Below are positions 11,445-52,579 of a stretch of 64,000 nucleotides of DNA, piece by piece. The notes below the pieces were generated by a model. That model ran no database searches, was not told the DNA's origin, and worked only from the letters and a program-made list of their open reading frames with translations. This stretch comes from a virus: positions 96,766 through 160,765 of the IMG/VR virus record IMGVR_UViG_3300037475_000032. The stretch is one strand, 5' to 3'. Numbering within the stretch: the stretch's first letter is position 1; the number at the start of each line of letters is the position of its first letter. The translations under genes and the position numbers were made by a program.

Positions 11445-14400
11445 ATGTATATGTGGGACCCGAACAGCATCAGTCAGGATCAGTTGCACGAATACCGCAA
11501 CGCCGCTGAATCGGCATGGGGCGATGACACACGTCATCCTGACTTCGTAGGGCACCCAGACCCAAGTGCGGGCCAGTGCTACGTCACGTCCAAGTGGCTC
11601 ACGGGCGAGCTTGGCGGTCATGTTGGGTTGAAGAATGGTCATTACTTCTGGGTCTCACCGGACAAGAGCCACGTCATTGATCTGACCGGCGATCAGTTCT
11701 CTAGTCCACCACCTTCGGGCAGGATGAACTTCCTGGACGGCCAGCCCGTGGATTCAGAGGACGAAGCCTATGAGCCCGAGACACGCGGATGGCGACCAGG
11801 ACCCATCATGTTCAAGCGTGCTAATCACCCGCTCTACAAGGGATTCAGGATCAAGGCCGATCCTCAGCCTCCGCAGGATCAGAGAGATTGGGAAGACCTG
11901 GAACAGTCACCTCGCATCAACGACCGTCTCCAGCGCTTCACTCGTCGTGCGAACGCTGCTCTCACCAATCCCACGAGTCGCACAGCCGATCTCATGGGAA
12001 TCGGGAACCCGATGAGTGAACCGCAGGCAGAAGAGGATCTGAACCAGCGTTACCTTCACGATACAATGAGTGATCTGCAAATGACGCAGGAACCAATCGA
12101 CCGAGAGTACAAGTTCTTCTATGGACACGGACAACTACACGTATCACCCGTTCATTCTCACGACGAACTCCGAGATCACTCTGGGACATCCCCTGACGAG
12201 AACGGACCAATCGCCGTGGGTTACGTTCATGTTCACGGAGGAGATGCTGTTTGGTCTATTGAGACTAACGTTGCCGCTCGCGGACTCGTTCGCGTCCTTA
12301 AGGACTACAGCAAGACTGTGGGTTGGAAATGGAACGGAGTGGTTGGAGGCGACGGAGCACCCATCCATGATGACTTCGGCGCTACGAAGTCTATGTGGTA
12401 CAAGGCCAACGCTGATGGAGAGGTACAGATCGCAGATGGACCTTTCCGAGGAGCCTCCCGCATCGACATCGTTGGCAGGACCGCCCATTATGCTCGATCC
12501 GCGTCTACCAGCAGTTATGGCGATGCTCTCAGAGAATGGGCCGACGACTTCGGATACCGCCTAGCCGAGTACCCAGGCGGCACGGACATGACCGACCGCA
12601 CAAAGAACTGGGAGGACTTGGAGCTTCACAACAACTCCGACCCCGAATGGGACCCGGAGAAGGCATACGACGGAGCGCCTATTGGTCCTCTCACATGCGG
12701 CACATGCGGCTTCGAGGCACCTGACTTCAATACCCTCATCCTCCATCGCAGACTGCACGAGGGAGAGGACGAAGACCGCATCCAGGATGGTCACTTCCCG
12801 ACGCTCAACGACCGTGACGATACGCTACCGCTTAGGCGCAGGAACGTCAACCCTACGGCGTCACCTCTTGCCTCTTTCCGCGAAGCATCAGTGGTGGATG
12901 GCTTCGACCTGTACGCGAGCCTGTGGGGATACGACCGTGACGAGGGATTGCGCTTCTACGGTGGTTACCTGAATGGTCAACTTCTCGGCTACGGGGTCGT
13001 GCGTCCCGGCGATGATGGAGCCGAGGTCGTCATGATCCACTCATCCATCCCCAACGTCGGCATCGGTACGGTACTCGCTGAGAAGATCAAGCAGCACTAC
13101 CCGGTTCTGACCACGCACGCCGATAGTCCCGAGGGCGAACGCCTTGCCAAGCGCATGGGGATGGTCAATGTCGAGGGTCAGCTATACAAGTGGGCCGCAG
13201 GCGAAGAACCGAAGGACATGATCCAGGCCCCCGTCCCGTTTATCTACGACATCCAGCAAGACCACATCACCACGGGTCATCCGGGCATGAAGACATCGGA
13301 CATCATGGGCCAGTTCACGCCCGGTGGTATAGTTGAGGGCTACTACGAGCCGGGCGGCAAGGTGGTCATCAACACGTCCACCAACATGCCGTACAGCACG
13401 TACCACATGATGCAGCTATGGTATTGGACGCACCCACAAATGCAAATCGTCGGCCTTGAACTAGAAGACCAGCAGGGCAAGAGGCAGAAGCTAGCGGCTA
13501 CTGAGATCGGCCCCTACCTCAAGACGCTCGTGGGAACCGACGCCGCTGCATGGAACGCCTACCAGGCGCTACGCAATGCAGGCGGGAAGGTCTATGCCGT
13601 AGGTGGCGCAGTACGCGATGCTCTGCTTGGCAAGGACCCCAAGGATATTGACCTGATGGTCTCCGGCGTTCCGCCCGAGCAGGTCTCTCATGTCCTTGAA
13701 CAGCTTCCTGGCCGCGTAGACTTGACTGGTAAGCGCTTCGGTGTCTACCGCTACAAGACAAAGGGTCAAGAGGTCGAGATTGCTCTGCCACGCGAGGACA
13801 CCTACGATGGTGAGCGTCGCGGTCAGGGCAAGATCACCGTTGATCCTAGCCTTCCGGTTGAGGATGACCTAAGGCGTCGTGACTTTACTGTCAACAGCAT
13901 GGCCGTGGATCTTGACACAGGTAAGCTCATCGACCCATACGGAGGCGAGAAGGATGCCGAGTCCCACACGCTTAGAACCACTCACCCTTCGTCCTTCGAG
14001 GAGGACCCAACTCGCCTTGTACGTGCGCTTGTGGCTTCTTCCCGCCACGGTCTGGTTCCAGACGAGAGGACCCGTCAGGAGATGGCAGAGAACGCATCGC
14101 GCCTCGACCGTGAGTCCCCCGATGCCCTTAAGCAGCAGCTAGACAAGCTGCTTGAAAGCCCCAATCCGGCAGGGGCACTCAGACTAGCCCATGACACAGG
14201 TGTCCTGCGTCATCTATTCCCTGAGGTCGATGCGAACTTCGACTACGATCAGAACAACACGCATCACTCATACTCGCTGGGTGAGCACTCACTGAACGTG
14301 CTCGACAACGCGAGTCGTCTGACTACGGACCCAGATCTTCGTCTCGCTGCCCTGCTCCACGATCAGGGCAAGCCGGACTCGGCATGGGTAGACCCGGAGA

Positions 14401-14936
14401 AGGGCACGACTCACTACTACGAAAAGTTCATCGACGGCCAGCCTGTAGGAGCCGATCACGCACAGGTGGGAGCCGACATGGCCGAGAAGCGCCTGCGCGA
14501 GACCTACAACTTCCCGGTGGCTCGCATCCGTCGTGTGCGTGAACTGATTGAACACCACATGTTCCCGGCCTTCTCGTCACCCAAGGGCGCACGCAAGTTC
14601 CTCAACCGTGTAGGCGACCACGCTGACGATCTCCTTACGCTGCGCGAAGCCGACATGACCGGCAAGGGGCAGAGCGAGGAGGAAGTCGCTGAAAGGACCA
14701 GCGCCGATAGGATGCGCAATCTCGTGGAGCAGGCCCGTCAGGCAGGCGCACCCACAGATCAGTCGTCCCTCAGTCTCAACGGCAACGACATTGTTGGCAT
14801 GGGAGTGAAGCCCGGACCACAGGTCGGGCAGATCCTCCGCCAGTTGACCAATGATGTGGTTGAGGAACCGCAGTTGAACGACAGAGACGCCCTCACTCAG
14901 CGAGCACAGGAGTACATCAATGCACTTCCAGCATAG
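11445..14936 (+). CDS. multi-domain fusion: papain/cap-like start, C2H2, GNAT, CCA-adding-enzyme nucleotidyltransferase plus HD domain (1163 aa)
   Basis: Residues about 1-100 resemble a small substrate-binding or protease-like fold (QCYVTSKW). Two copies of the shared virion module lie around residues 225-310 and 590-670. A C2H2-type CGTCG...H...H site is near 417. Residues about 486-583 look like a GNAT acetyltransferase (GIGTVLAEK). Residues about 703-840 are a class II CCA/poly(A) nucleotidyltransferase, with YAVGGAVRDALLG, a D-x-D pair (IDLM), RRRDFTVNSMA and DPYGG. An HD metal domain follows at about 940-985 (LAALLHDQGKP). CCA enzymes repair tRNA 3' ends; here the domain sits in a protein far longer than the usual 400-450 aa. 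One of four module-bearing proteins; virion location is inferred. Confidence 0.8.
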   Translation: MYMWDPNSISQDQLHEYRNAAESAWGDDTRHPDFVGHPDPSAGQCYVTSKWLTGELGGHVGLKNGHYFWVSPDKSHVIDLTGDQFSSPPPSGRMNFLDGQPVDSEDEAYEPETRGWRPGPIMFKRANHPLYKGFRIKADPQPPQDQRDWEDLEQSPRINDRLQRFTRRANAALTNPTSRTADLMGIGNPMSEPQAEEDLNQRYLHDTMSDLQMTQEPIDREYKFFYGHGQLHVSPVHSHDELRDHSGTSPDENGPIAVGYVHVHGGDAVWSIETNVAARGLVRVLKDYSKTVGWKWNGVVGGDGAPIHDDFGATKSMWYKANADGEVQIADGPFRGASRIDIVGRTAHYARSASTSSYGDALREWADDFGYRLAEYPGGTDMTDRTKNWEDLELHNNSDPEWDPEKAYDGAPIGPLTCGTCGFEAPDFNTLILHRRLHEGEDEDRIQDGHFPTLNDRDDTLPLRRRNVNPTASPLASFREASVVDGFDLYASLWGYDRDEGLRFYGGYLNGQLLGYGVVRPGDDGAEVVMIHSSIPNVGIGTVLAEKIKQHYPVLTTHADSPEGERLAKRMGMVNVEGQLYKWAAGEEPKDMIQAPVPFIYDIQQDHITTGHPGMKTSDIMGQFTPGGIVEGYYEPGGKVVINTSTNMPYSTYHMMQLWYWTHPQMQIVGLELEDQQGKRQKLAATEIGPYLKTLVGTDAAAWNAYQALRNAGGKVYAVGGAVRDALLGKDPKDIDLMVSGVPPEQVSHVLEQLPGRVDLTGKRFGVYRYKTKGQEVEIALPREDTYDGERRGQGKITVDPSLPVEDDLRRRDFTVNSMAVDLDTGKLIDPYGGEKDAESHTLRTTHPSSFEEDPTRLVRALVASSRHGLVPDERTRQEMAENASRLDRESPDALKQQLDKLLESPNPAGALRLAHDTGVLRHLFPEVDANFDYDQNNTHHSYSLGEHSLNVLDNASRLTTDPDLRLAALLHDQGKPDSAWVDPEKGTTHYYEKFIDGQPVGADHAQVGADMAEKRLRETYNFPVARIRRVRELIEHHMFPAFSSPKGARKFLNRVGDHADDLLTLREADMTGKGQSEEEVAERTSADRMRNLVEQARQAGAPTDQSSLSLNGNDIVGMGVKPGPQVGQILRQLTNDVVEEPQLNDRDALTQRAQEYINALPA

Positions 14937-15356: not shown

Positions 15357-16466
15357 ATGCCTGTCGCAAATATCCTCGATCCGATCCACGATACCCTAGA
15401 CGCCCGTGTGTGGGATGATCCGGGCGCAGACAAGCCCGTATTGAAGCCCAAGCACCTCCACTGGATCAAGAAGACGATCTACGATGCGCTTGAAAAGGCG
15501 GGCTACACGGATGTCGAGAAGTGGCTGCATCTCGTACTGACCGGTTCGCTTACAACGTACCAGTATTCGGACGAGTCCGACTGTGACGTTTCACTCTTTG
15601 TGGACACGAAGGTCTTCCCCGAGTGGTCGAGGGCAGAGATGATCGGCGTCATGGTAGGAGAGGTCGATGGGACCACGCTACCGGGCACACCTCACCCGAT
15701 GCAGAACTTCGTTGTGCCCTCACACATCAAGCCCCATGACCTTTACAAGAAGGGCTTGCGCTCAGGCTACGACCTAGATACCCAGACGTGGGTCGAGCCG
15801 CCTGAGCATGATCGTGTCCATGACGTAGAGGCTGAGGAGAACGGCTTCTATGCCTACGCACTCCAGATGGCTGACAAGATGGAGCGCCTGTTGAAGTACG
15901 AGCCCGAGAAGGCAGCCGAGTTCTGGCACGCGATCCACAATCGCCGCAGGCGCGACATGGCATCAGGCAAGGGTGACTTCGCTGAGTCGAACATCGTCTA
16001 CAAGTTTCTTGCCAATCGAGGTCTATTCCCGGCCATCTCGGAGGCCACAGGCGAGTACATCGCACATAAGCTAGGAGCTAATAGTGACCCTTCTATTAGC
16101 CCTGAGCTAATGCAGACACATGTCCTCTACAACCCGTTCAATCCCGAGAAGTTTCATCCTCCCGCTCCAGGGCACGAAAAGTCCATGCCGTGGGTCTATG
16201 ACCCTGATACCAAGACCGTTCACCTTGGTCCTCCGCGAGCATACCACTGGGAGTTGATCGAAAGAACACCGGAGCTACGAGGGCAGTATGAAGGAGCATG
16301 GACGAAGCCCGCTATGGGACAGGCGGGGAATATCCATGGGGCGATGTCGTGGCCCGGCCGTAACACTGACTTCATGGGTGAGCAGGTTGACCCCGAGACC
16401 AAGAGATCTATCAATCAAGCACTAGGCGCACCCGAAGAAGATGAGCACGAGTGGAACTTCGCGTAA
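15357..16466 (+). CDS. Pol-beta-type nucleotidyltransferase with C-terminal virion module (369 aa)
   Basis: Residues about 30-85 contain a long helix then LTGSLTTYQYSDESDCDVSL: the GS...DxD signature of Pol-beta superfamily nucleotidyltransferases. A helical domain follows (residues about 150-235), rich in Arg and Glu. Residues about 280-369 are one copy of the repeated module: PWVYDPDTKTVHLGPP, a His-containing helix, and the terminal EHEWNFA signature. The substrate could be tRNA, another RNA or a protein. Linkage to the CCA-enzyme fusion suggests they act in the same step, perhaps as packaged enzymes. The end overlaps the HNH gene. Confidence 0.75.
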   Translation: MPVANILDPIHDTLDARVWDDPGADKPVLKPKHLHWIKKTIYDALEKAGYTDVEKWLHLVLTGSLTTYQYSDESDCDVSLFVDTKVFPEWSRAEMIGVMVGEVDGTTLPGTPHPMQNFVVPSHIKPHDLYKKGLRSGYDLDTQTWVEPPEHDRVHDVEAEENGFYAYALQMADKMERLLKYEPEKAAEFWHAIHNRRRRDMASGKGDFAESNIVYKFLANRGLFPAISEATGEYIAHKLGANSDPSISPELMQTHVLYNPFNPEKFHPPAPGHEKSMPWVYDPDTKTVHLGPPRAYHWELIERTPELRGQYEGAWTKPAMGQAGNIHGAMSWPGRNTDFMGEQVDPETKRSINQALGAPEEDEHEWNFA

Positions 16467-26664: not shown

Positions 26665-28617
26665 ATGATTCCCTCTGTAGCAGAAGACATCAACGTGGAG
26701 AGCACCGTGACTGGCGAGAAGATCGCCATGTCGCTGGACGAGAACAGTCTCGCTCACCTCATGACGGTGCTGACCAACCTGTACTCCGACCCCGAGATGG
26801 CGGTACTGCGTGAGTACAGCACGAACGCCCGTGACTCCCACATCGAGGCGGGCACCACGCGGCCCATCGAGGTCACGTTGCCTTCGGTCCTCAATCCCTT
26901 CCTGCACATCAAGGACTTCGGCATCGGCTTGAACGAATCTGACATCGCCGAGATCTACAGCAAGTACGGCGCGAGCACCAAGCGTGAGACCAACGAACAG
27001 ACGGGCGTCCTTGGCCTTGGCTGCAAGAGCGGCCTGACCTACAGCCCACAGTTCTCGCTCGTCGGCATCAAGGAGGGTACACGCACGATGGTCAGCATTG
27101 CGCGTGACGAGGATGGCACGGGCTCGATGACGATTGTCGAAAGCTCGCCCACCGATGAGCCCAACGGCGTCGAGGTCATCATCCCTGTGCGTCGCTACAA
27201 CAACCTCGAAGACAAGTCCCGTGACTTGTTCCGCTTCTGGGAGCCGGGCACAGTGCTCGTCAACGGCGAGGAACCAGAACGCATCGAGGGCACGAAGGTC
27301 TCGGATACCATGCTTATCGCCGAGCGTCTGCACACGGACTACATCGTCATGGGCGGTGTCCCTTACCCCGTGTCGCTCAACACTCCGCTGGCGGGCAAGT
27401 ACAAGCTCGTGGTCTTCGCTGAGATCGGTGATATCAACTTCACGCCTAGCCGCGAGGACTTGCAGCAGACCAAGCGCACAAAGGACTTCATTGCCCTGGC
27501 CCAGGAGCGCTTCGTCTCGCAGGTACAGGGAGCGATTCAGCGTGATATCGATGGTGCTGAAAGCCCTCGTGCCGCCTTCTACACGGCCATCAAATGGCGC
27601 GATGCACTTCCGCACCTCAAGATGGACATGACCTACAAGCAGCAGGAAATCCCGCTGGAGTTCGTTGCTCCCGAAGGCAAGAAGATCGTGGTCAGTAACC
27701 GCAACAGCGATGTGTTGAGCCGACACAGCAAGCACACCACGCTTGCGGCTGGCACGTTCATCAATGGCCTGCTCGTCTACGGCTACAACATGACGAACTT
27801 CACGGCCAGTCACAAGAAGAAGCTCAAGAAGTTCGCGGAAGAAGCGGGCATCAACGCCGAACACTTCATCCTCAGCGAGGACCGCATCGAATCTGTGTGG
27901 CTCGATCCGGCCAGCATGGTGGAGTGGGAGGCCATTCGTGCCATCAAGCTCGACAATCACGGCAGAGCCGGGGGGGCAGGTCGAGTCAAGGGCTCGTACG
28001 ACATGTGGGAGCAAGGCACGTTCCGCAACGAGGTCCCGGCCGAGGAGATCGATGGCGAACTGCCCTTGTTCTACTTCACCACACACGACTTCAAGGTTGT
28101 GGGTCGCAACGCTACTCGCAACGGCGATGCTGTGCGCCTTGTCACCAAGCACTTCCCTGACTGCACAGTGGTCCTCATGGGAGCCAACCGCACATCGAAG
28201 TTCTGCCGCGACTTCCCGAGCGCCAAGTCCATTCAGCAGGTGCTTCGTGAGACCTATGAGAGGATCGCGGACGAAATCGATCCCAAGTACATCAAGGCGT
28301 ACAAGCTGGACGGCGCAAGTTCGTACGGTCGTCCTCTCAGTCGCCTGGACGCTTCGTTGATCGATGACCCCGACCTGGCCGAATCAGTGCGTCTGTCGGA
28401 CATGACGGGTGTCGAAGGCGCAGTAGAACCACTGCGCGAGTTCAGCGGCTTGATGCAATACGTCGGGATATCTGATAGACTCCAGTATGACTTCGAGCAC
28501 GACCCGCTCGACAACTACCCACTGCTATCCAACTGCAACTTCCGTAACGAAGTCCCGTCTCACCTTTACCTATACGTCAACGCCGTCTACGCGGCATCCC
28601 AAGCAGAAAAGGAGTAG
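26665..28617 (+). CDS. rIIA: rIIA-like GHKL ATPase protein (650 aa)
   Basis: The N-terminal 120 residues carry the GHKL/Hsp90 ATP-binding motifs: REYSTNARDSH (N box), KDFGIGLNE (G1) and GVLGLGCKSG (G2). The rest matches the extended rIIA layout, and rIIB follows directly. In T4, rIIA and rIIB form a membrane-associated complex that protects against RexAB exclusion and affects lysis timing; the same role is only inferred here. It is of typical rIIA size and precedes rIIB by 7 nt. A strong promoter lies upstream. Confidence 0.84.
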   Translation: MIPSVAEDINVESTVTGEKIAMSLDENSLAHLMTVLTNLYSDPEMAVLREYSTNARDSHIEAGTTRPIEVTLPSVLNPFLHIKDFGIGLNESDIAEIYSKYGASTKRETNEQTGVLGLGCKSGLTYSPQFSLVGIKEGTRTMVSIARDEDGTGSMTIVESSPTDEPNGVEVIIPVRRYNNLEDKSRDLFRFWEPGTVLVNGEEPERIEGTKVSDTMLIAERLHTDYIVMGGVPYPVSLNTPLAGKYKLVVFAEIGDINFTPSREDLQQTKRTKDFIALAQERFVSQVQGAIQRDIDGAESPRAAFYTAIKWRDALPHLKMDMTYKQQEIPLEFVAPEGKKIVVSNRNSDVLSRHSKHTTLAAGTFINGLLVYGYNMTNFTASHKKKLKKFAEEAGINAEHFILSEDRIESVWLDPASMVEWEAIRAIKLDNHGRAGGAGRVKGSYDMWEQGTFRNEVPAEEIDGELPLFYFTTHDFKVVGRNATRNGDAVRLVTKHFPDCTVVLMGANRTSKFCRDFPSAKSIQQVLRETYERIADEIDPKYIKAYKLDGASSYGRPLSRLDASLIDDPDLAESVRLSDMTGVEGAVEPLREFSGLMQYVGISDRLQYDFEHDPLDNYPLLSNCNFRNEVPSHLYLYVNAVYAASQAEKE

Positions 28618-28624
28618 GACCATC

Positions 28625-29755
28625 ATGGCCCAGACAGCAAGCCCACTCGATCAGAACGCGAAGGTCTTTGCGTTCGTCAAGGCTGCGCTTGAGAGGGGCG
28701 ATGGTCCCTCCGTAGTTGCAGCAGCCGTAGAGGACAAGTACGGCATCACCACGACCAAGGACTCGATCCGCAGGTTCCGTGAGCGTCACGGCATCGCATC
28801 GGTCAAGAAGACCACCAAGGCCACGCCAAAGGCGAAGGCATCAAAGCCCAAGCCCGTGAAGGCCGCCTTCCAATACTCGATCATCGAGCAGGACGGCGAG
28901 CAGTGCATCACGGTCTTCGCTCCTGGCGAGACGCCGAAGGTGGCGGACTCGTCGCACCCCAACTTCTCTACGATGGTGGAGAAGGCCAAGGCGGGCGACA
29001 TCGACGTGCTCGATCTCTTCGACGTGGAGAGGGTCATCCGCGAGAACTTCACACGACTCTCTGAGCGCGTGTTGGTCCGCGACGGCCGTATCTACTTCGA
29101 CGGCAACGAGTTGGACAACGCGATCACAGAGCACATCCTTCGCTTCCTCGATGAAGGTGGCGCAGATGGCGACTGGAGCCCGCTCGTGAACTTCCTGGAG
29201 AAGATCCAGGACAACCCCATCGAGCACTCACGCGAGCAGCTTTACCGCTGGCTCGCATCGCACAAGTTCTCGATCACCCACGAGGGCGACATCGTTGCCT
29301 ACAAGGGTGTGAAGCGCAACAGTGATGAGGACGCGGAGCACGAGTTCCAGAGCGTCTACGGTGGTCACGCCATCGTGGATGAGGTCGAGGTGCATGGCGA
29401 GGTGCCGCAGTCTATCGGCTCCGTCGTGGAAATGCCTCGTACCGAGGTGGCTCACAACCCACGCGAGGCGTGCTCCAGTGGTCTGCACGTCGCCACGTTC
29501 AGCTACGCCAAGGGATGGGGCGAGGTGGTCCTTGAGGTCCACGTCAACCCGCGTGACATCGTGTCCGTGCCAAACGGCGAGGCAGAAAAGGCCCGTACGT
29601 GCCGCTACTACGTCGAGGATGTCGTGACGGCTCCTTACGAGGCCGCCATCGTCCTCGACACCACGCCTGCGCCAGTCCCGGCGCAGGATGACGACGAGTG
29701 CCTGCACTGCGCGTGCTTCGACGCAGGCGACCAGTGCTGCGTGTGCGGTGCGTAA
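28625..29755 (+). CDS. rIIB: rIIB-like protein (376 aa)
   Basis: Residues about 14-55 are a helix-turn-helix-like domain ending KDSIRRFRERHG, paralogous to the start of the phosphoesterase at 5042. After a Lys/Pro-rich linker (about 60-78), residues about 85-340 show the rIIB fold, including YRWLASHKFSITHEGDIVAYKG. The C-terminus carries an extra cysteine cluster (CLHCACF, CCVCG), an added zinc or redox site. It should partner the rIIA product. ATG at 28625 follows GGAGTAGGACC. Confidence 0.82.
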   Translation: MAQTASPLDQNAKVFAFVKAALERGDGPSVVAAAVEDKYGITTTKDSIRRFRERHGIASVKKTTKATPKAKASKPKPVKAAFQYSIIEQDGEQCITVFAPGETPKVADSSHPNFSTMVEKAKAGDIDVLDLFDVERVIRENFTRLSERVLVRDGRIYFDGNELDNAITEHILRFLDEGGADGDWSPLVNFLEKIQDNPIEHSREQLYRWLASHKFSITHEGDIVAYKGVKRNSDEDAEHEFQSVYGGHAIVDEVEVHGEVPQSIGSVVEMPRTEVAHNPREACSSGLHVATFSYAKGWGEVVLEVHVNPRDIVSVPNGEAEKARTCRYYVEDVVTAPYEAAIVLDTTPAPVPAQDDDECLHCACFDAGDQCCVCGA

Positions 29756-34644: not shown

Positions 34645-37600
34645 ATGAATACGCAAGCAAAGACACCAAACGGCTCAGATCGCCTCACAGTGGATGGCTG
34701 GACTGCCGCTACCCCAAGGCGCTGGAAGCATGAGTGGATAGCAGAGAGCCCGCACGAGGCGGGCTCTCAAAATGTCGCTCTAGCTCAAGTATTCAACTCT
34801 TCTCCTGCTAATGCTCTAGCGGCTCATCGTGATCCTTTCGCAGAAGGTCAGGGTTTCCATGTCGCACCACACATAGTATCGCACGAGGGATGGACTGTCA
34901 AGAGCGACGTGCCGAGCGAGCCACCGAACTACAAGCCAGCGGCCAAGCGTTTAAACGCCCCGCACTGCGGCTCATGCAAGATGTACGATCACGGCAAGTG
35001 CTGGGGCTACGGCAACAAGCCCGTGGAGGAGGATTACGTCTGCGACAGCTACTCTCCCTCAGACAATAGTCATCAAGACCAAGCTGACAACCTGCCAAGT
35101 GGCGAGAACGAAGTTGACAGCACGACATCCTCATTTGCAGGGGATTTGGATTGGAAGTTGCCGGTTTTTGACACTTCACCCTCTGAGTCAGGTTGGCGAT
35201 TGGCCGCAAGTCCTGATGAGTTGTTCATCGCACTCAATGTGCCTAAGCCAACAGCCGACAAGATCCACGCTTGGGCCAAGGAACAGGACTGGCCTGAGGG
35301 CACTGAACTAGAGGAGCCAAGCGAGTATCACATCACTCTGCTTTACTCACCGAAGGGACATGAGGAGCACAAGGAGGCGGAGTGGTGGACGACCGATAAC
35401 TCCGACAACGTTGTGGTCAAGAAGCTGGACGAGTTCCCATCCCAAGAGCGTGGTGAGCAGAACGCCTTTGTGCTCCGAGTGGATCGACCCGACGACGAGA
35501 TCAAGATTAGGATGGAAAGGCTACTGGACAAGGCTGAGGAGGAAGGCGTGGAGGTCAACCGCTATCCAGGTGGCAGCAAGCCTCACATCACCATCGCCTA
35601 TGGTCCTAAGCTGCCTAAGGGCATCAAGCCACCTGACATCTCATTCAGCACCGATGAGGCGCACTGCGGTAAGCCAAGGACAAGCTCAGTCGCCAGCGAT
35701 ACGCTTGGCGATCTCGAAGCAGACGTTGGTTCCGGTTGGACCAGTGATGAGTTCGAGGCCCTGATATCCCCAGAGCCCAAGACACATAGCGCCTGGCACG
35801 TAGATGAGGAGGCACAGGAAGCGCACGATCATCTCAACGATGCCGAGCAGCAGTATGATTGGGAGGGCGCAGTATCTCATGACTTTAGGCTAGCAGACTA
35901 CAACGTGCAAGTGCCAGTGGTGACGCCAAACCAAGGTGTCGGGCTCGCAACTCCGCATCAAGTAGGTGACTTGCTCTCAATCCAGAGCGTGGCCCACAAC
36001 TTGCACTACAAGTATCAGCAGAGCGGGCTAGACCCCAACAGCGCACAACAGTATGCCAGTAAGCTGCTCCAAGCGATTGGCTACACGAATCCAGATCAGC
36101 CGACCATAGACGCAGCATTGCAGGCTTGGAAGGCAATGTACCCTGAGGATGCTCGCTCCGCATATGCTCTGCCTGGGGTTGCGACATCAAGTCACGATGC
36201 TGACGGTGGCTTTGGTGACGCTGCCTTGGACTGGACTGATGCTCACACTGCCTCCGCCACTGATGGCGAGGCTGAGAGTCTTGCCCTTCTTGAGTTCAGC
36301 GGCCTGAGTGGGCGTAACAGCGATGTTGCCGGTGATGGCAAGGACGATAGTTTGGGCCATGGCTGGACTCTAGCACACCCCAACCATGATGCCAACCACA
36401 CAAGCAACAAGGACGAACAACAGGCTGGAGTAGAACAGCCTGCGTCTGCCGTCACGGCCGAGCTTGGATGGAATGAGCCCCAGTGCAGTGAGATAGGCGA
36501 GCAGCCAGATCACATAGACCGCCAGAGCAATCATGAAGACCATGATTGGAGAGTAGCAGGTTCGCCCCAGACAATCTTCCAGCCCATCAGGGCGATAGTG
36601 GACCAAGGCGGCCAAGTCCATACGTTCAACGATGGTCATGTCCCGTACTCGCAGTCTAATGGCATCGACCCAAACACGAACCAAGCACATCTCCAGATCC
36701 ATCAGCCTAGCGGAGAGGTGGAGGATTTGTCAGGCGCTCACTCACAGCATGAGCAAACAGTGGCAGACTACTTGAACCAGCAGACAGGGGAAGATCGATA
36801 CCACGCAAGGCCCAATGACATGGATTGGGTGTTCGGGTCGGCGGCAGGCGGCGCTCCTCAAAAATCTCAGAGAGCGTATCAGTCACGAATAGGTGAGGAT
36901 ATGCACGTCCACGAGCCTAAACTACACGCTACAGGAGCCCAAACACTGTCCAACCCCTCCCGTCAGCCTGTCACTCAGGCACGCGCACACGAGAGCGATA
37001 GCCGAGGAGGGTCACCCTCCGATGAGTTGACCAGCTTCCTGTCACACATTCATGAGGGCGATTCATGGGACACGAGACAATGGCCTGATCCATTGAGTGA
37101 CAACGGCACTGGAGGTAATGTGCCTCGTGGTTGCACTTGTCAGTCAGGACACAAGCTCGATTGCCCCGTTCATGGCCTTGAGGCCAATGGTGAATACGAC
37201 ACCATGGAGTGGACTATCCCTGAGGCTTCACCTGTTGGCTATCCACAGGATCAACCGCGCAACTGGCAACAGGCTGAGTCGTCAGTACGTCAGTCAGTAA
37301 GGACTAGGCAAGAGGTTGATGACAATGATGAGCCCAAGCCCAACAGCAAGGCCGACCAAGACAGAGCCAAGCAACGCACCAACCACGGCACAGAAGCCAA
37401 TGAGTATGAGTGGCATCAAGTTCATGCGCCTAGCATAGCACACGACACAAGTCAAGGCGCATCAGCCACACCACTAGCACACACAGCACAGGATGTCAAT
37501 AGCCGTCCGTCCTATAAGGCATTGCTTAGACCTTCGGGCTTAAGACAGTCCATCGAAATCTCAGGAAGTGAAAACGACCTAGAGTGGTACTCAAGTCACG

Positions 37601-40401
37601 ACTCATCTTATGACCTAAGTCACCAGAAGACTTCGGGTCCCATATCTGATGGAACAGGGACGCCAGGCGTGACGGTAGAGGAAGTAGATGCCCCCACTCC
37701 GCTAGCCAACGACGATCCTTGGAACGAGAGCTTCCGTGACCGTCGTCCTTTGCTCTACCATGTGCCGACAGGGAGAGTCCTCATGGGGCCTCCTGGTTCC
37801 GAGCACGGGTCCCTTTACAACCACCTGGGGCGCACTACTCCCGAGTGGCTTCCAGAAGAGGTACACGAAGGCATCATTGGGAAGGGCGGAGTGAAGTTCT
37901 TCGATGACAACTCATCCAATCCCGAAGGCTACCCACAGGCCGCTGCCGATGCGGTCGTTCACCACACAGGGATAGCCGAGGACCCGGAGGTGGACAAGGA
38001 ATACGGCTGGGACTTCAATGGGTCCCATAGGATGGGTGCTCAGGTCATCAATGTGCCCGGCAACGAAGACTTCGATTTCCAAGGAAGGGTCCCGTTGATT
38101 GCGCATGGAGAAAACATCTATGCCGGGACTAACGGAGAGACCCACGATTCGTTGAAGGCCAGGCTCGGAGACAGGCTCCAGGGCGTTCATCCCAACGACA
38201 TCGCTCATGGCGGCATGTTCGTGGACCACAACGCCTCTGAATACGGGATCACTCCGGGATCTTATGAGTGGTTCGATACGAACTTCTTCCAGCCCGGTTC
38301 TCCACACAATCAAGCCGTCGAGGATGAGATCAGGCGAAGGGGCCTGGAGCCCAAGAACCTGGATGACGGATTCACCTTCTCCAAGGTTGCGGCCGTGCCT
38401 GTCCAGTACCACGGGGACATCGATCCATCCGAAGGATATCCTGGATGGGAGGATGGGGATATGTTCGGGGACCCCATTGGATACGCGGGTCGCTGGCCGA
38501 CAGTGGTCCATGACGGCACAGTGCATATCGGGCCTGAACAGTCCACTCATGGACAAGTCAGGCAGAAACTAGGCTTGCCTGCCACTGGCGAGGAGCCCGA
38601 AGGCTGGATCGGACCAAACCCTGAGGCCGAAGAAGACAACCACGATCACGAGGGCGTCGAATTCCTGCCAGGCGAACCCGAGGACGGAGAGGGAGCCCCA
38701 TACGGCTGGTACGGGCACAAGGGCGTGCCTCATCAAAACACAGGCATTACCGAAGCCATGATGAACTACTGGAACACGTTCTTGAGGCATCGAGAGCCTA
38801 CGCCCGGAACCGGCTATGGTCATGGGCCACGCATGTCAGGAGTCAGCGTCCATGAAGTCGGGGAGCCCACAGATAGCGGAACTGAGTGGCACGGGACCCG
38901 TCGTCCTTTCACCTACTTCCCCCACACTCAGGATTTGATCCTTGGGGCACCCGGAGCCGACCATGCAGCGATGCTCTACGCGGACAAGAGGCTCTTTCAG
39001 AAGTACAGGCGACAGCAGCTAGAGCCCGACACGGCGCAGGGCGGCGTCTACAATGACCCGGAGGGCAACAAGGTCGTGGAGTACTACTACGGGACGCCCG
39101 AGGATGAGCATGTCCAGGCCGTTCAGAACGCCCTTGGGGCACAAAGGTCACAGCTAAACGAGTGGCATGTCGGCGATGATGTTCACGACAACCCCGACAA
39201 GACCTGGGACTTCAACTCCAAGATCGCTCAGACAATGTACCACTGGGCTCCGAGGGCAATGCGCGACCAGATCTCCCAACAGGGTCTTAGGGCCGCGTTG
39301 CCTGAGGGTGATGAGTACGTGGACTATGACAACCCAGATGCCTACAAGGGCGTCTACTTGTTCAATCGTGTTCCTGCCTACACACCAGGAGGCTCCAAGG
39401 GCTTCTACGGGGATGATTTGTGGGCCGTGGACACCCATGGCTTGAATCCACAAGTAGATGAGGGCGAGTGGGACGCTTCCATGATTCCTCACGACATCAC
39501 TCCCGATAGGATTCAGTTCCTCAACTCACCAGCACATCGCAAGGCATGGGAACAGCAGGAAGAGGAGCGCTACGGAAAGGCTCCCAGAACGTCACAGGAG
39601 GGTCCTACAGGCGATGAATTGCAGAACATAGAGGATTCACAGCCTCAAGAGCGTCAGGGCCTTATACCGCTCTCCTGGGAGCCCGGATTGCACGGCAAGG
39701 GCTTGTACTTCCCCGAGGCCGACAAGCTCACCACCTGGAGTGATCCACGACACCACTCAGATGTCTGGTACGACGATGAGCACTACCCACTCCCCGGCGT
39801 AGCTCACCACCTGGATATTCAGCCTAACGGCCAGTACGTGGATCAGGGCGGCTTCAACCGAGAGATGGAAGACAACAACGAAGGTCTGGACGAAGTTGAC
39901 CTTGCTCAGGCCCTCAAGCGTCACGATCCGAGGCTCACTGACCGTGATCCTGGACACGAGTGGTCATTTGCCAAGGTTGCGCACGCACTCGGCTGGCAGC
40001 CGGGAGAACACGGAAAGGGACTTATCCACGACGGAGAAGTTCATACCTGGGGAGTCGGGGACGATCCAGACGGCCAGCCTACGCATCCCGAATATGCACA
40101 GCAGAACTTCAACATGAACGAAGGTCAGTACGCGAATCACCAGATGTTCGAGTCGGCCTTCCAAATGGACCCCAAGGGCAACGTCAACATCTACGAGGAT
40201 CATCCCGATACCATCAACCAGGTTGCTCAGGCCGTGGAGTCAGCCGACCCGAGACTGAAAGCCAATGTGCTCCATGACTACGACTGGGACTTTGGGAACG
40301 TAGAGCCTATGAAGACAGAGCCCGACATGGACGAACACGGCAACCTACATGGCGTGCAGTTCACCAACGATGAGCCCGGAGTCTCTACAGTCGATGCGTG
40401 A
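34645..40401 (+). CDS. giant modular virion-type protein with 2H phosphoesterase and ADP-ribosyltransferase-like domains (1918 aa)
   Basis: Residues about 107-136 hold a Cys-rich unit (CGSCKMYDHGKC, then CDSY). Residues about 190-340 are a 2H phosphoesterase, with two H-x-T motifs (HITLLY and HITIAY) and a fold like LigT/CPDase. A low-complexity, His/Gln/Ser-rich stretch runs from about 380 to 1030. Seven modules of about 90-110 aa follow, some interspersed, each starting with a strand and G-x-[VL] and mostly ending in a W-x-F signature (DWVF, GWDF, FTF, WDF, EWSF, DWDF). Residues about 1530-1630 (YHWAPRAMRDQISQQGL, GVYLF, DLWAVDT, ITPDRIQ) look like an ADP-ribosyltransferase/RES fold. Function in the virion is inferred; no exact family is known to me. 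Confidence 0.75.
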   Translation: MNTQAKTPNGSDRLTVDGWTAATPRRWKHEWIAESPHEAGSQNVALAQVFNSSPANALAAHRDPFAEGQGFHVAPHIVSHEGWTVKSDVPSEPPNYKPAAKRLNAPHCGSCKMYDHGKCWGYGNKPVEEDYVCDSYSPSDNSHQDQADNLPSGENEVDSTTSSFAGDLDWKLPVFDTSPSESGWRLAASPDELFIALNVPKPTADKIHAWAKEQDWPEGTELEEPSEYHITLLYSPKGHEEHKEAEWWTTDNSDNVVVKKLDEFPSQERGEQNAFVLRVDRPDDEIKIRMERLLDKAEEEGVEVNRYPGGSKPHITIAYGPKLPKGIKPPDISFSTDEAHCGKPRTSSVASDTLGDLEADVGSGWTSDEFEALISPEPKTHSAWHVDEEAQEAHDHLNDAEQQYDWEGAVSHDFRLADYNVQVPVVTPNQGVGLATPHQVGDLLSIQSVAHNLHYKYQQSGLDPNSAQQYASKLLQAIGYTNPDQPTIDAALQAWKAMYPEDARSAYALPGVATSSHDADGGFGDAALDWTDAHTASATDGEAESLALLEFSGLSGRNSDVAGDGKDDSLGHGWTLAHPNHDANHTSNKDEQQAGVEQPASAVTAELGWNEPQCSEIGEQPDHIDRQSNHEDHDWRVAGSPQTIFQPIRAIVDQGGQVHTFNDGHVPYSQSNGIDPNTNQAHLQIHQPSGEVEDLSGAHSQHEQTVADYLNQQTGEDRYHARPNDMDWVFGSAAGGAPQKSQRAYQSRIGEDMHVHEPKLHATGAQTLSNPSRQPVTQARAHESDSRGGSPSDELTSFLSHIHEGDSWDTRQWPDPLSDNGTGGNVPRGCTCQSGHKLDCPVHGLEANGEYDTMEWTIPEASPVGYPQDQPRNWQQAESSVRQSVRTRQEVDDNDEPKPNSKADQDRAKQRTNHGTEANEYEWHQVHAPSIAHDTSQGASATPLAHTAQDVNSRPSYKALLRPSGLRQSIEISGSENDLEWYSSHDSSYDLSHQKTSGPISDGTGTPGVTVEEVDAPTPLANDDPWNESFRDRRPLLYHVPTGRVLMGPPGSEHGSLYNHLGRTTPEWLPEEVHEGIIGKGGVKFFDDNSSNPEGYPQAAADAVVHHTGIAEDPEVDKEYGWDFNGSHRMGAQVINVPGNEDFDFQGRVPLIAHGENIYAGTNGETHDSLKARLGDRLQGVHPNDIAHGGMFVDHNASEYGITPGSYEWFDTNFFQPGSPHNQAVEDEIRRRGLEPKNLDDGFTFSKVAAVPVQYHGDIDPSEGYPGWEDGDMFGDPIGYAGRWPTVVHDGTVHIGPEQSTHGQVRQKLGLPATGEEPEGWIGPNPEAEEDNHDHEGVEFLPGEPEDGEGAPYGWYGHKGVPHQNTGITEAMMNYWNTFLRHREPTPGTGYGHGPRMSGVSVHEVGEPTDSGTEWHGTRRPFTYFPHTQDLILGAPGADHAAMLYADKRLFQKYRRQQLEPDTAQGGVYNDPEGNKVVEYYYGTPEDEHVQAVQNALGAQRSQLNEWHVGDDVHDNPDKTWDFNSKIAQTMYHWAPRAMRDQISQQGLRAALPEGDEYVDYDNPDAYKGVYLFNRVPAYTPGGSKGFYGDDLWAVDTHGLNPQVDEGEWDASMIPHDITPDRIQFLNSPAHRKAWEQQEEERYGKAPRTSQEGPTGDELQNIEDSQPQERQGLIPLSWEPGLHGKGLYFPEADKLTTWSDPRHHSDVWYDDEHYPLPGVAHHLDIQPNGQYVDQGGFNREMEDNNEGLDEVDLAQALKRHDPRLTDRDPGHEWSFAKVAHALGWQPGEHGKGLIHDGEVHTWGVGDDPDGQPTHPEYAQQNFNMNEGQYANHQMFESAFQMDPKGNVNIYEDHPDTINQVAQAVESADPRLKANVLHDYDWDFGNVEPMKTEPDMDEHGNLHGVQFTNDEPGVSTVDA
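34949..34956. repeat. GTTTAAAC palindrome (copy 4, in giant gene)
   Basis: Part of the 12-bp palindrome GCGTTTAAACGC, also found at 48695 and 53797; here it encodes R-L-N-A. Confidence 0.6.
36580..40296 (+). repeat. seven protein-module repeats ending in W-x-F
   Basis: Approximate spans: 36580-36840, 37741-38010, 38088-38385, 38490-38850, 38897-39213, 39670-39969 and 39990-40296. The last two are closest (W-x-PG-x-HGKGL opening and DPRL before the W-x-F end). The repeats are at protein level; nucleotide identity is low. Confidence 0.65.
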
Positions 40402-49389: not shown

Positions 49390-50057
49390 TAGAAAGAGGA
49401 AGACCTAGATAGTGATTGTGCTGTGATGATGCGTAGGCGACGAGGGATGACGTTTAGTGGTGCCCCCCCAGCCGCAAAGTTGATCTGCCCGAAGTCGGAT
49501 GATTTGCTTTTTGTTTCCATCCCTACATTGCCGTTCGTGTACGTGGAGTCGGCGATGGCTTTCAATTCTTCCCACGCTCCACCTGCACCGATTTTGTGCC
49601 AAGAGATGACTTTACCGGATACGGCACTGATGCCAAGCAGATCTTTGGCTGCGATTTTCAGATTGGCTGTTTCGCCAAGTGTCGTGGCCGTGCCACCCGT
49701 GACTCTCTCGGAGATGATCTTGAAGTTGGCTTCCGCCCCAAGCGATTCCGCACGTAGCCTGTAGCCATTATGGGATGTGGGGTTGAGACAGGCCCAGAGA
49801 GCGAACCACTCTTCTTTCAAGTTTTCGGGAAACAACGGTTCCCATGACACACCCGGTTCGGTGAATTCAGCAGGCGTCCAGTAGCAGCCGTTCAGTTCGA
49901 CGGCCGCCGTAGCAGACGTGTACCCATCCGCTGATCCGTGAATCTCTCCTGCGTTTACGCACCAGGAGAGGATTTTCCACTTGCCACCTTCGTTGATCGG
50001 GTTTTCAGCAGTCGAGCCGTTCAGGGCGGCTAGGATCGATGTGCTCGGAAAGGCCAT
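49389..50057 (-). CDS. lectin-like decoration protein, paralog C (222 aa)
   Basis: Third member: GGKWKILSWCV, GCYWTPAEFTEPG, EEWFALWAC, SHNGYRLRA, DSTYTNGNVGM. Its stop overlaps the paralog B start, and its own start overlaps the 827-aa gene's stop, so all are leftward and coupled. Its distance from paralog A (about 6 kb and one rightward block away) suggests an insertion or inversion. Confidence 0.7.
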   Translation of the reverse strand: MAFPSTSILAALNGSTAENPINEGGKWKILSWCVNAGEIHGSADGYTSATAAVELNGCYWTPAEFTEPGVSWEPLFPENLKEEWFALWACLNPTSHNGYRLRAESLGAEANFKIISERVTGGTATTLGETANLKIAAKDLLGISAVSGKVISWHKIGAGGAWEELKAIADSTYTNGNVGMETKSKSSDFGQINFAAGGAPLNVIPRRLRIITAQSLSRSSSF

Positions 50058-52540
50058 TACGCCTTACCTGCGTTCTCCTGCAACTGCTCCCATACTTCCG
50101 GTGTGGATAGATGAAGTGACTGAGTAGCGTGTTGCATGATGGTCTGTCCGGGTTCACCCTGGACATGCTCACCCGTCTGGGGATGGGTGAACCAAGGTGC
50201 TCGTACCTGAGCCGCAATCTTGGAGATCGTTGGCACGTACTCGCCGTAGGGGATCTGGTTCTTCGGGTAGTTGGGCGCGATGTTCTGATCCCAGCTTTCC
50301 CCCACTTGATCCCTGAGCGGCTTGGTGTTTTCCCACCAGTCAGGTAGCTTAGACTCCTGCCCCTGTAGGCCAGGGTTGAGCTTGGCAGCCCAGTCAATGG
50401 ACTCGTGCGGGAGCGGGTCGAGCACCTTGAGCCCAGAGTGATCTTGATGCGATCCTTCGCCCGTGCGTCGATTGTCCCACATGCCCCACTGGAAGGCTCC
50501 TAGCGGAACGTGGCTGTAGCCCGCAGCGTCACGCCCGGTCTGTAGCTCGCGCTCGAACTTGAAGTAGTCACGGTTGTTCATCTCCTTGTCGTAGTTGTGG
50601 CCCAACACAGCCATCATGTGAACGTCGATGGTTGCCAACTGCGACGTGACCGGCTGGAGCAACAGCCAAGCAAACGAGCAGACCTTCGGACCCACTCCCG
50701 ATACTCCCATCTGGAGAACGGCTGCGCGGAAGTGGTGGCCCGTTCCGTCGTGTTCATGCACGTCTTCCAGGGCAGCCTTGAGGATCGCGTCTGCGTGCGA
50801 CGAGATCTGTGAGATGGCCTTGAGGTGGCTTCCCATCCATGCCCCATAGCGACCTGCCCTCACAGGCTCCTGTGGGCCTTCCTCCGGGGCGTCGAATAGC
50901 TGGTCCTGGGAAACCCTCGCTGCGAAGTCCAACTGCGGCTGAAAGTCCTTGATGTACGTCTGGAGACGTTTCGCTAGAGCCTCGTTTGCACGTCGCTCGA
51001 TTTCGTCCGTCGAGCGTTGCTTCTTCTTGTCCACGTCTTCGCGCATGATGCGATTCTGCTCCTCAGTCTGCCAGTCGAAGACGAGATCCTTTGCGCGTTG
51101 TGCAGCGGCCGGATAACCCGCCTGCGGGTTCATCTGGAAGATGATGTTCTCAAACGGCTTGAGGAACTTGGCATACGGCATGTGCGCGTAGCGCTCACCC
51201 TCGCCGAAGCGAGCGACGTTCCAGGATTGACGCTTCTGCTCCAGCGTGTTCCAGTAGGTAGCCGGATCGGTGGCTCCTGCCGGGACACTCTGTAGATCCT
51301 GGTAGTGGATGGTGTTCCAGCGCAAGTCCTTCCTGGGGCTCAGGAGCACGGCCCTAAAGGCGTTCACGATGGCCTGCTTCATGCGTTCGTAGTCGGGCTT
51401 GCCCTCACCCGTCGTCAACTGCGCCCACTCGGTATCGATGAGTCGAGCGTTGTCCACGGTCGCTTGCGCCTGTAGAGGATCGCCGTGGTCAAGGTAGGCG
51501 TTAGGTGACTGCGCCTGTACCCCCGATGACCACTGAGCGTTCGGGTCCGTGTTCCCTTCTACACTCCCAGCGTGTATTCCCGTACTCGGGAAGTAGCCAC
51601 TCGGTTCGGTCTGGAACATGTTACCCACCCCATAGTCCGAGTATTCGTGGGGGGGCACGTTATCCTTCGGCAACCCGACGCCAGGTGACTGCGGCAGACC
51701 GGGCATAGCAACCGGGGCGACAGACTGTGAAGGGTGAACACCTTGGGCGGCAGGACCGACACCCTCAGCGCTCTGTGCTGGTTCAGTGAACTGCGGGAAT
51801 AGCGCCACCTTCTGCGGCCCGAAGGCACGGTAGTAGGCGGCGTATCCGGTCTGCGCAATGCACTCCGTAAAGAGGGCCTTCTGAGCGTTTGCACTCAATA
51901 GCGGGAAGTGAGCGGCGCAGGCACGATTCTCGCCTTCCCAGCCGAAGTCACCTCCGCTGACGGCGTGTCCGAGAACATCGTGGACGGTGCGGAAGGCGAC
52001 GTTCTGCTCCGGGGTCCAGATAGGATGCTCAGAGTGTGCCCTAGAGACAACGAAGTGCTTGTGCTTGTGGATGTCTTCGGCCATCTCCTGAGCGTTCGCG
52101 TAGGGCTCGGGGTTGTCCGTGACCTCGATCTTGAGTTGTTTCGCCAAGACGGCCGCACGCTTCACCGAATCGTCGGCTAGCTCCTTAAAGGCTTGGGCGG
52201 CCTGCGGTTCGTACGTCGGAGCCGCTGCGTAGGCTTCGGCAATGGGCCTTAGCTGGTCCGTGAACGTGGTTTTCCACATCCCGACCTTCCACATCGCCGT
52301 CGTACGCATGTGGTTCTTGCGCGTGACTGCGATGAGCAGATTGGCAACAGCGGTCTTGTCTGTGTTGCCCGTCTTCTCTACCTCCTCGCCGTGCGGACTC
52401 TGAGCCGTGGCGACGAAGCACTCACGCTTGTTGTCCCAGCCGACCTTCTTGACACTCCAGCCAAGATCACCGATCTTGGTGTACAGTTCGGGAAGGGGAG
52501 TAGTTATGCCCTGAAAGGCGCTCGTGACATCGACCGGCAT
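50057..52540 (-). CDS. 827-aa virion-type protein with HhH-GPD-like motif and truncated module
   Basis: ATG at 52540 follows AACTGGTG; a GTG lies one codon before. Residues about 150-250 contain an unusual HDVLGHAVSGGDFGWEGENR metal-site-like segment. Residues about 607-650 contain MGVSGVGPKVCSFAWLLL and TIDVHMMAVLG, the helix-hairpin-helix plus D-x-H pattern of HhH-GPD DNA glycosylases; the overall fold is not verified. The C-terminal 60 residues (TISKIAAQ, then PWFTHPQTGEHVQGEPGQ) match the opening of the shared module, here apparently truncated. Pro/Gln-rich linkers lie between. Confidence 0.68.
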   Translation of the reverse strand: MPVDVTSAFQGITTPLPELYTKIGDLGWSVKKVGWDNKRECFVATAQSPHGEEVEKTGNTDKTAVANLLIAVTRKNHMRTTAMWKVGMWKTTFTDQLRPIAEAYAAAPTYEPQAAQAFKELADDSVKRAAVLAKQLKIEVTDNPEPYANAQEMAEDIHKHKHFVVSRAHSEHPIWTPEQNVAFRTVHDVLGHAVSGGDFGWEGENRACAAHFPLLSANAQKALFTECIAQTGYAAYYRAFGPQKVALFPQFTEPAQSAEGVGPAAQGVHPSQSVAPVAMPGLPQSPGVGLPKDNVPPHEYSDYGVGNMFQTEPSGYFPSTGIHAGSVEGNTDPNAQWSSGVQAQSPNAYLDHGDPLQAQATVDNARLIDTEWAQLTTGEGKPDYERMKQAIVNAFRAVLLSPRKDLRWNTIHYQDLQSVPAGATDPATYWNTLEQKRQSWNVARFGEGERYAHMPYAKFLKPFENIIFQMNPQAGYPAAAQRAKDLVFDWQTEEQNRIMREDVDKKKQRSTDEIERRANEALAKRLQTYIKDFQPQLDFAARVSQDQLFDAPEEGPQEPVRAGRYGAWMGSHLKAISQISSHADAILKAALEDVHEHDGTGHHFRAAVLQMGVSGVGPKVCSFAWLLLQPVTSQLATIDVHMMAVLGHNYDKEMNNRDYFKFERELQTGRDAAGYSHVPLGAFQWGMWDNRRTGEGSHQDHSGLKVLDPLPHESIDWAAKLNPGLQGQESKLPDWWENTKPLRDQVGESWDQNIAPNYPKNQIPYGEYVPTISKIAAQVRAPWFTHPQTGEHVQGEPGQTIMQHATQSLHLSTPEVWEQLQENAGKA

Positions 52541-52579
52541 CACCAGTTACTATACAGGATCGCCCCTGTTCTCTGCGGT

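Follow-up and report, generated by a model that had tools for sequence, protein, structure and literature searches.

What kind of protein is encoded by the long reading frame at 34645..40401 (+), and what could its repeated segments be for? The first-pass annotation described a repeated virion module spread over four proteins, and it delimited this frame correctly at 1918 aa. The window, that is, the whole stretch of 64,000 nt analysed here, covers bases 96766-160765 of an IMG/VR record of 160,765 bp in total, whose products include a major head protein and its maturation protease, terminase, portal, sheath and DNA polymerase. By portal and head protease, the nearest named phages are Rhodococcus E3 and Finch and the mycobacteriophages of the Phrappuccino and Bxz1 types; its marker genes, at 30-40% protein identity, group the phage with large myoviruses of actinobacteria such as E3, Bxz1 and Finch. 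The 1918-aa gene shares its strand with the portal region and comes after a tail-fibre gene and an HNH gene, about 30 kb from the portal gene. Two further genes treated below, a CCA-adding enzyme fusion and a nucleotidyltransferase fusion, are no more than about 11 kb away from the portal. Genes related to the lysis inhibitors rIIA and rIIB are also found nearby (window 26665-29755).

Pairwise comparison of the 1918-aa protein's segments without relatives gave barely any alignment, the signal being too weak. A tblastn search with the whole protein against 50,697 named phages returned 0 matches, a single-sequence search of viral contigs with its C-terminal half returned nothing, and a peptide pattern, sensitive to close relatives only, found no module relative in 84,980 bacterial and archaeal genomes. 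With the head protease as bait we obtained 37 related loci, several of them on records of 130-170 kb; it was the addition of these relatives that made the module profiles succeed. All module-bearing relatives are IMG/VR records, and their genes are mechanical longest-ORF calls. Iterated HMMs seeded with the last segment of the 1918-aa protein recovered 17 copies of a module of about 105 aa (type I), with the short signature W-x-P-G-x-x-G-K-G ... H-T-W ... H ... W-x-F and the consensus LxWxPGxxGKGLxxxxGxVHTW...HxxY...FxIxPxGxV...ADPRLK...WxF. HMMs seeded with the end of the nucleotidyltransferase and with aa 1416-1524 recovered 13 copies of another module (type II; consensus RxPLIYDPxTxxVxxGxxGxxHxxL...W). 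Profile searches of whole records revealed additional copies absent from the models: of 19 related IMG/VR records, 10 carry type I and 11 carry type II, and E3, Finch, Phrappuccino and Eggerthella phage LE2-3 carry neither.

The repetition is thus real and far beyond chance, but it involves two domain families. The annotation had proposed at least seven segments of one unit and a profile test of whether they align mutually: there are indeed seven, and they align within type I (three copies, one weak) and within type II (four copies), but not across both. A single family was rejected because profile-profile comparison does not join the two types, and we kept them apart despite their matching order of secondary-structure elements, which does not prove a common origin.

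All seven modules are read from the + strand. The weak first type I copy, m1 (aa 640-731; 36562..36837), ends in D-W-V-F and matches the profile with E 0.003 over 36592-36783 (aa ~650-713). The four type II modules occupy aa 1030-1125 (37732..38019; G-W-D-F end; HMM E 1.9e-15), aa 1145-1248 (38077..38388; F-T-F-S-K-V-A end; E 3.5e-12), aa 1280-1378 (38482..38778; degenerate; E 4.7e-9) and aa 1416-1524 (38890..39216; T-W-D-F end; E 3.6e-25). The last two type I modules, m6 (aa 1671-1776; 39655..39972; E-W-S-F end; E 5.3e-20) and m7 (aa 1777-1884; 39973..40296; D-W-D-F end; E 4.8e-34), stand side by side. Among the other proteins said to carry the unit, the 369-aa nucleotidyltransferase does end in a type II module (aa 273-369; 16173..16463, +; E 6.5e-22), closing with E-W-N-F-A and the stop. 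For the CCA-adding enzyme fusion, two copies had been claimed; profile-profile comparison recovered a divergent type II module at aa ~593-690 (13221..13514, +; E 3.5e-5 / 1.4e-5) and not the one at aa ~216-300. The truncated copy at the end of the leftward 827/828-aa protein had to be dropped, its best stretch reaching only E 13. Beyond the window, at genome 8510-12469, a head-region protein of 1319 aa contains a further type I copy (E 8e-26), and in several phages a type I copy lies in the gene adjoining the head protease.

Structure prediction of one module, which the annotation had suggested, gave a hairpin-helix-hairpin-helix arrangement for type I (AlphaFold2 model of m7 from 13 type I sequences; pLDDT 84.6, pTM 0.76), with the W-x-F tail disordered in this one model. 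The type II model, built for the nucleotidyltransferase end from five sequences, arranges its elements in the order predicted for type I, with a low-confidence pLDDT of 67. Type I matched nothing below E 0.07 in Pfam, PHROGs and PDB sequences, and its fold matched no described fold below E 0.2 among PDB and viral folds. For type II, Pfam gave no credible match, only weak Kelch matches, and the low-confidence model matched no viral fold. The literature searched, largely without subscription journals, contains no report of the modules or of the joint motif described below. By these comparisons, type I and type II are two undescribed small-domain families.

Between the modules lie other units. 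Near the N-terminus, Cys-rich cassette A (aa 85-142; 34897..35070, +; CGSC..CWGYG..CDSY) has phmmer/HMM matches in a 1558-aa protein of relative G002 and a 562-aa protein of relative G003. It is followed by a 2H phosphoesterase cassette (aa 187-347; 35203..35685, +) with both H-x-[TS] motifs present as HIT, in 'EYHITLLYSP' and in 'KPHITIAYGP'; it matches phrog_755, and its matches to Pfam Acb1 (E 3e-4) and TIGR02258 (E 0.002) both fall short of the curated cut-offs, while the 2H copy of one relative passes that of Acb1. The copies in relatives are 33-46% identical. Cys-rich cassette B (aa 802-888; 37048..37308, +; CTC..GHKLDCPVHG..SPVGYPQD) occurs in two copies each in a 780-aa protein of G001 and a 1390-aa protein of G003; A and B recur as independent cassettes, at most two per protein. 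An HMM-defined ART-like domain (aa 1529-1640; 39229..39564, +) appears KptA/DarT-like: its best PDB matches, both sub-threshold, are RNA 2'-phosphotransferase (KptA; E 0.09) and DarT (E 0.13), and the 1216-aa protein of G001 matches NCBIfam KptA with E 0.03. The C-terminal tail (40297..40398, +; ..EP..H-x-V-Q-F-x-N-D..) has similar counterparts in the same G001 protein and in a 545-aa protein of G003.

The CCA-adding enzyme fusion (11445..14936, +), conserved in five phages, combines a YunG-like N-terminus (Pfam E 2e-5) with PolyA_pol (E 2e-26) and HD domains, and the nucleotidyltransferase cassette of the 369-aa protein (15357..16046, +; phrog_36119 E 4e-5) recurs in a 934-aa protein of G001 and a 2581-aa protein of G009. 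Proteins of the relatives also carry cREC, PcfJ-like, CCA, nucleotidyltransferase and GNAT or GNAT-like units beside 2H, ART and Cys-rich A and B. In the 1558-aa relative (G002, IMGVR_UViG_3300048502_000015, 150456-155132, equal to L093:5456-10132), the PcfJ-like domain is interrupted by an intein (Hint, intein splicing and LAGLIDADG domains). The enzyme set of 2H, ART, cREC and CCA/nucleotidyltransferase resembles phage RNA-repair toolkits (PMC9503650, PMC7824862). ARAGORN found 0 tRNA genes in the 64,000-nt window, yet the phage codes for CCA-adding and other tRNA/RNA-end enzymes.

The order of cassettes, mapped by our own profiles, varies between phages. After the nucleotidyltransferase comes a type II module here and 2H plus ART in G001, and in G009 the domain is embedded within the 2581-aa protein. 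Two insertions fall exactly at K-x-A sites. In the CCA fusion of G009, an ART cassette ending G-G-W-K-F-A directly follows K-L-A, while four homologs continue without the insert; and a 996-aa protein of G009 carries a 2H cassette where its 828-aa homolog in the window has S-K-I-A-A. The latter two proteins (window 50057-52543, -, and G009:144142-147132) have most of their length in common and belong to phrog_3170, and the 2H cassette near the end occurs only in the 996-aa homolog.

The 1918-aa product and its relatives are polyvalent proteins of exchangeable cassettes. One polypeptide unites disparate activities (in the 1918-aa protein, 2H and ART together with modules and Cys-rich cassettes), and the phage that encodes these proteins has head and late genes, close to the CCA and nucleotidyltransferase fusions and farther from the 1918-aa gene. 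Like the polyvalent proteins of phages and conjugative elements described by Iyer et al. in 2017 (PMC5512222), these proteins are very large and join unrelated enzymes (ART, 2H, GNAT, NTase) to unassigned small domains. The earlier view that no described family is involved stands for the small modules and falls for their host proteins, and the single "repeated virion module" becomes two families, two Cys-rich repeats and several enzymes. The proteins here also differ from that class. The modules match no Pfam model; the available text of PMC5512222 says nothing of cassettes ending in W-x-F; and no zincin (MPTase) or other peptidase domain was found by Pfam in the proteins scanned, the MPTase processing domain being, in that same text, a common but not universal theme of polyvalent proteins. 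We propose instead that a separate head protease may cut at K/R-x-A.

This proposal starts from the joints between cassettes. A strict pattern of W-x-F plus K-x-A is only mildly enriched genome-wide (21 matches, against a mean of 9.8 and a maximum of 19 in shuffles and 3 for the reverse pattern), so we tested the two motifs separately against the boundaries. Of 29 module copies, 13 have W-x-F at the end, where 1.2 would be expected (a level reached in 0 of 2000 random placements); the count has to be read with the fact that the HMM end columns include W-x-F. In the 12 proteins with mapped cassettes it occurs 28 times (F-x-W, 5), and 17 of the 28 lie within 20 aa of a boundary drawn from our own profiles, whose last columns include W-x-F, against 7.7 expected (0 of 5000 placements). 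Three whole proteins, as well as ART and PcfJ-containing stretches, also finish with W-x-F, so the motif marks the ends of cassettes and not one domain. The annotation was right that W-x-F often ends the module; as a mark specific to type I and II modules, the motif is ruled out.

The second motif, [KR]-[VTI]-A, occurs 36 times in the same 12 proteins, while its five permutations occur 8-24 times. Nineteen of the 36 lie within 20 aa of a boundary, against 9.7 expected (4 of 5000 placements), and one lies deep within a cassette; the motif is short, and disordered linkers and folded domains differ in composition, and two of the five permutations are mildly concentrated near boundaries too (A[KR][VTI] 11 vs 6.1, [VTI]A[KR] 8 vs 4.9). 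In the 1918-aa protein all four sites are at joints: R-V-A at aa 636 (36550..36558, +) directly ahead of m1, K-V-A at aa 1247 (38383..38391, +), K-I-A at aa 1526 (39220..39228, +) between a type II module and the ART, and K-V-A at aa 1777 (39973..39981, +) between the last two type I modules. Across the proteins, the motif lies close to only 9 of 29 modules, and some junctions are without it.

The same motif recurs in head proteins. In an unselected tripeptide count, KTA, KVA and RTA were among the top signals of polyvalent and head proteins and not of the other 542 proteins, and [KR]-[VTI]-A is the top tripeptide signal common to the cassette proteins and the head-protease gene product. When all proteins of six genomes were ranked by [KR][TV]A, the top four were head-protease gene products, followed by genes of the terminase-portal interval, the head-region protein and polyvalent proteins. 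Among the head-protease products of 28 relatives there are 169 copies, where 33 would be expected. In nearly all major capsid proteins, R-x-[AV] occupies a fixed position near the N-terminus and is possibly a processing site; it lies shortly ahead of [DE]-Y (L002:16901-18007, relatives, E3, Finch and Phrappuccino) and is absent in G009. Phages of the E3, Finch, Phrappuccino and Bxz1 types also have K/R-T/V-A frequently in several head-region proteins, as here; Finch gp12 (L110:2469-4868), beside the portal, holds 11 copies of K/R-[VTI]-A, mostly K-K-T-A, and in the isolated phage E3 the effect is weak.

There are precedents for such a site. In other large phages, the prohead protease recognises a motif of three residues that propeptides contain in many copies (PMC10052503, in its available text), and T4, which also packs the ADP-ribosyltransferase Alt, loads internal proteins via short capsid targeting sequences adjoining the site that gp21 cuts (PMC9026906). 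Because the motif is common to head proteins and these precedents exist, a head-protease site is the best reading of K-x-A. The comparison with T4 concerns a short peptide next to a protease site, here a candidate one, on host-directed proteins packed in the head, here putatively so, including an ART; T4 internal proteins have a single N-terminal propeptide each, whereas here a putative tag would close every cassette, with K/R-x-A as candidate site (PMC9026906). In Salmonella phage SPN3US, with its ejection proteins and its prohead protease gp245, head proteins are cut at a three-residue motif that propeptides contain in multiple copies; that motif is A-x-E, measured by mass spectrometry, and no multi-enzyme cassette polyprotein is reported in the available text (PMC10052503).

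We consider a head-packaged precursor, cut by the prohead protease into cassettes, to be the best reading, with an even chance of being correct. The protein is a string of small, predicted two-hairpin two-helix modules, Cys-rich mini-domains and enzymes probably acting on RNA ends or NAD (2H, KptA/DarT-like ART, cREC, CCA-adding and other nucleotidyltransferases, PcfJ-like and GNAT-like units), in which each cassette tends to finish with a flexible acidic linker bearing W-x-F and then [KR]-[VTI]-A. As a precursor it would be packed into the prohead, where the phage head protease would cut at [KR]-x-A, and the pieces, many with a C-terminal W-x-F peptide, would travel into the host with the DNA. 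The small modules may be adaptors without enzymatic activity, retaining cargo in the head or tethering it. Gene context, the head-region protein with its type I copy and the analogy with polyvalent proteins suggest a location in the virion. The annotation's idea that the W-x-F / K-[VI]-A junctions are processing sites or tags is accordingly the best-supported one, by inference from their clustering at joints and the sharing with head genes.

The proteins might also be packed and injected whole, with K-x-A and W-x-F as residues of disordered linkers favoured by recombination. Packing and injection are the presumed fate of the polyvalent proteins described so far, many of which have no known cleavage site (PMC5512222, in its available text); many junctions here have no K-x-A either. 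Since the order within the motif is specific, with K-x-A above all permutations, and the motif is common to the head-protease product and other head-gene proteins, we judge this unprocessed form unlikely. It is more improbable still that an unpackaged RNA-repair scaffold is made during infection, with modules that bind tRNA or hold 2H, KptA-like ART, cREC and CCA/nucleotidyltransferase together: the enzyme set fits the phage RNA-repair toolkits (PMC9503650, PMC7824862) and the CCA-enzyme fusion is kept in five phages, but PcfJ-like and Cys-rich cassettes do not fit in a simple way, and the motif sharing with head genes and the type I module beside the head protease would be left unexplained.

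Small beta-containing modules in tandem, in a gene downstream of tail-fibre and HNH genes, could also bring to mind a structural or receptor-facing virion protein with surface domains like Ig-like decorations. The modules share their polypeptides with intracellular enzymes whose active-site motifs look intact, and fold searches with the type I model found no resemblance to Ig-like, carbohydrate-binding or tail folds, which makes this reading very improbable.

Returning to the precursor cut in the head, its most specific form is that these are true head-borne polyproteins, in which the prohead protease cuts at K/R-x-A to give separate injected RNA-repair and NAD-using enzymes, each of them keeps a terminal W-x-F peptide as a head-loading tag, and evolution swaps enzymes at the cleavage sites. 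We put this forward tentatively, as possible but rather doubtful. If it is true, the sequence itself would reveal a rule by which polyvalent proteins are processed, showing where pieces start and end and tied to head maturation; W-x-F would be a candidate for a short peptide with which chosen proteins could be loaded into a phage head; and RNA-repair enzymes would enter with the DNA, able to act before phage gene expression.
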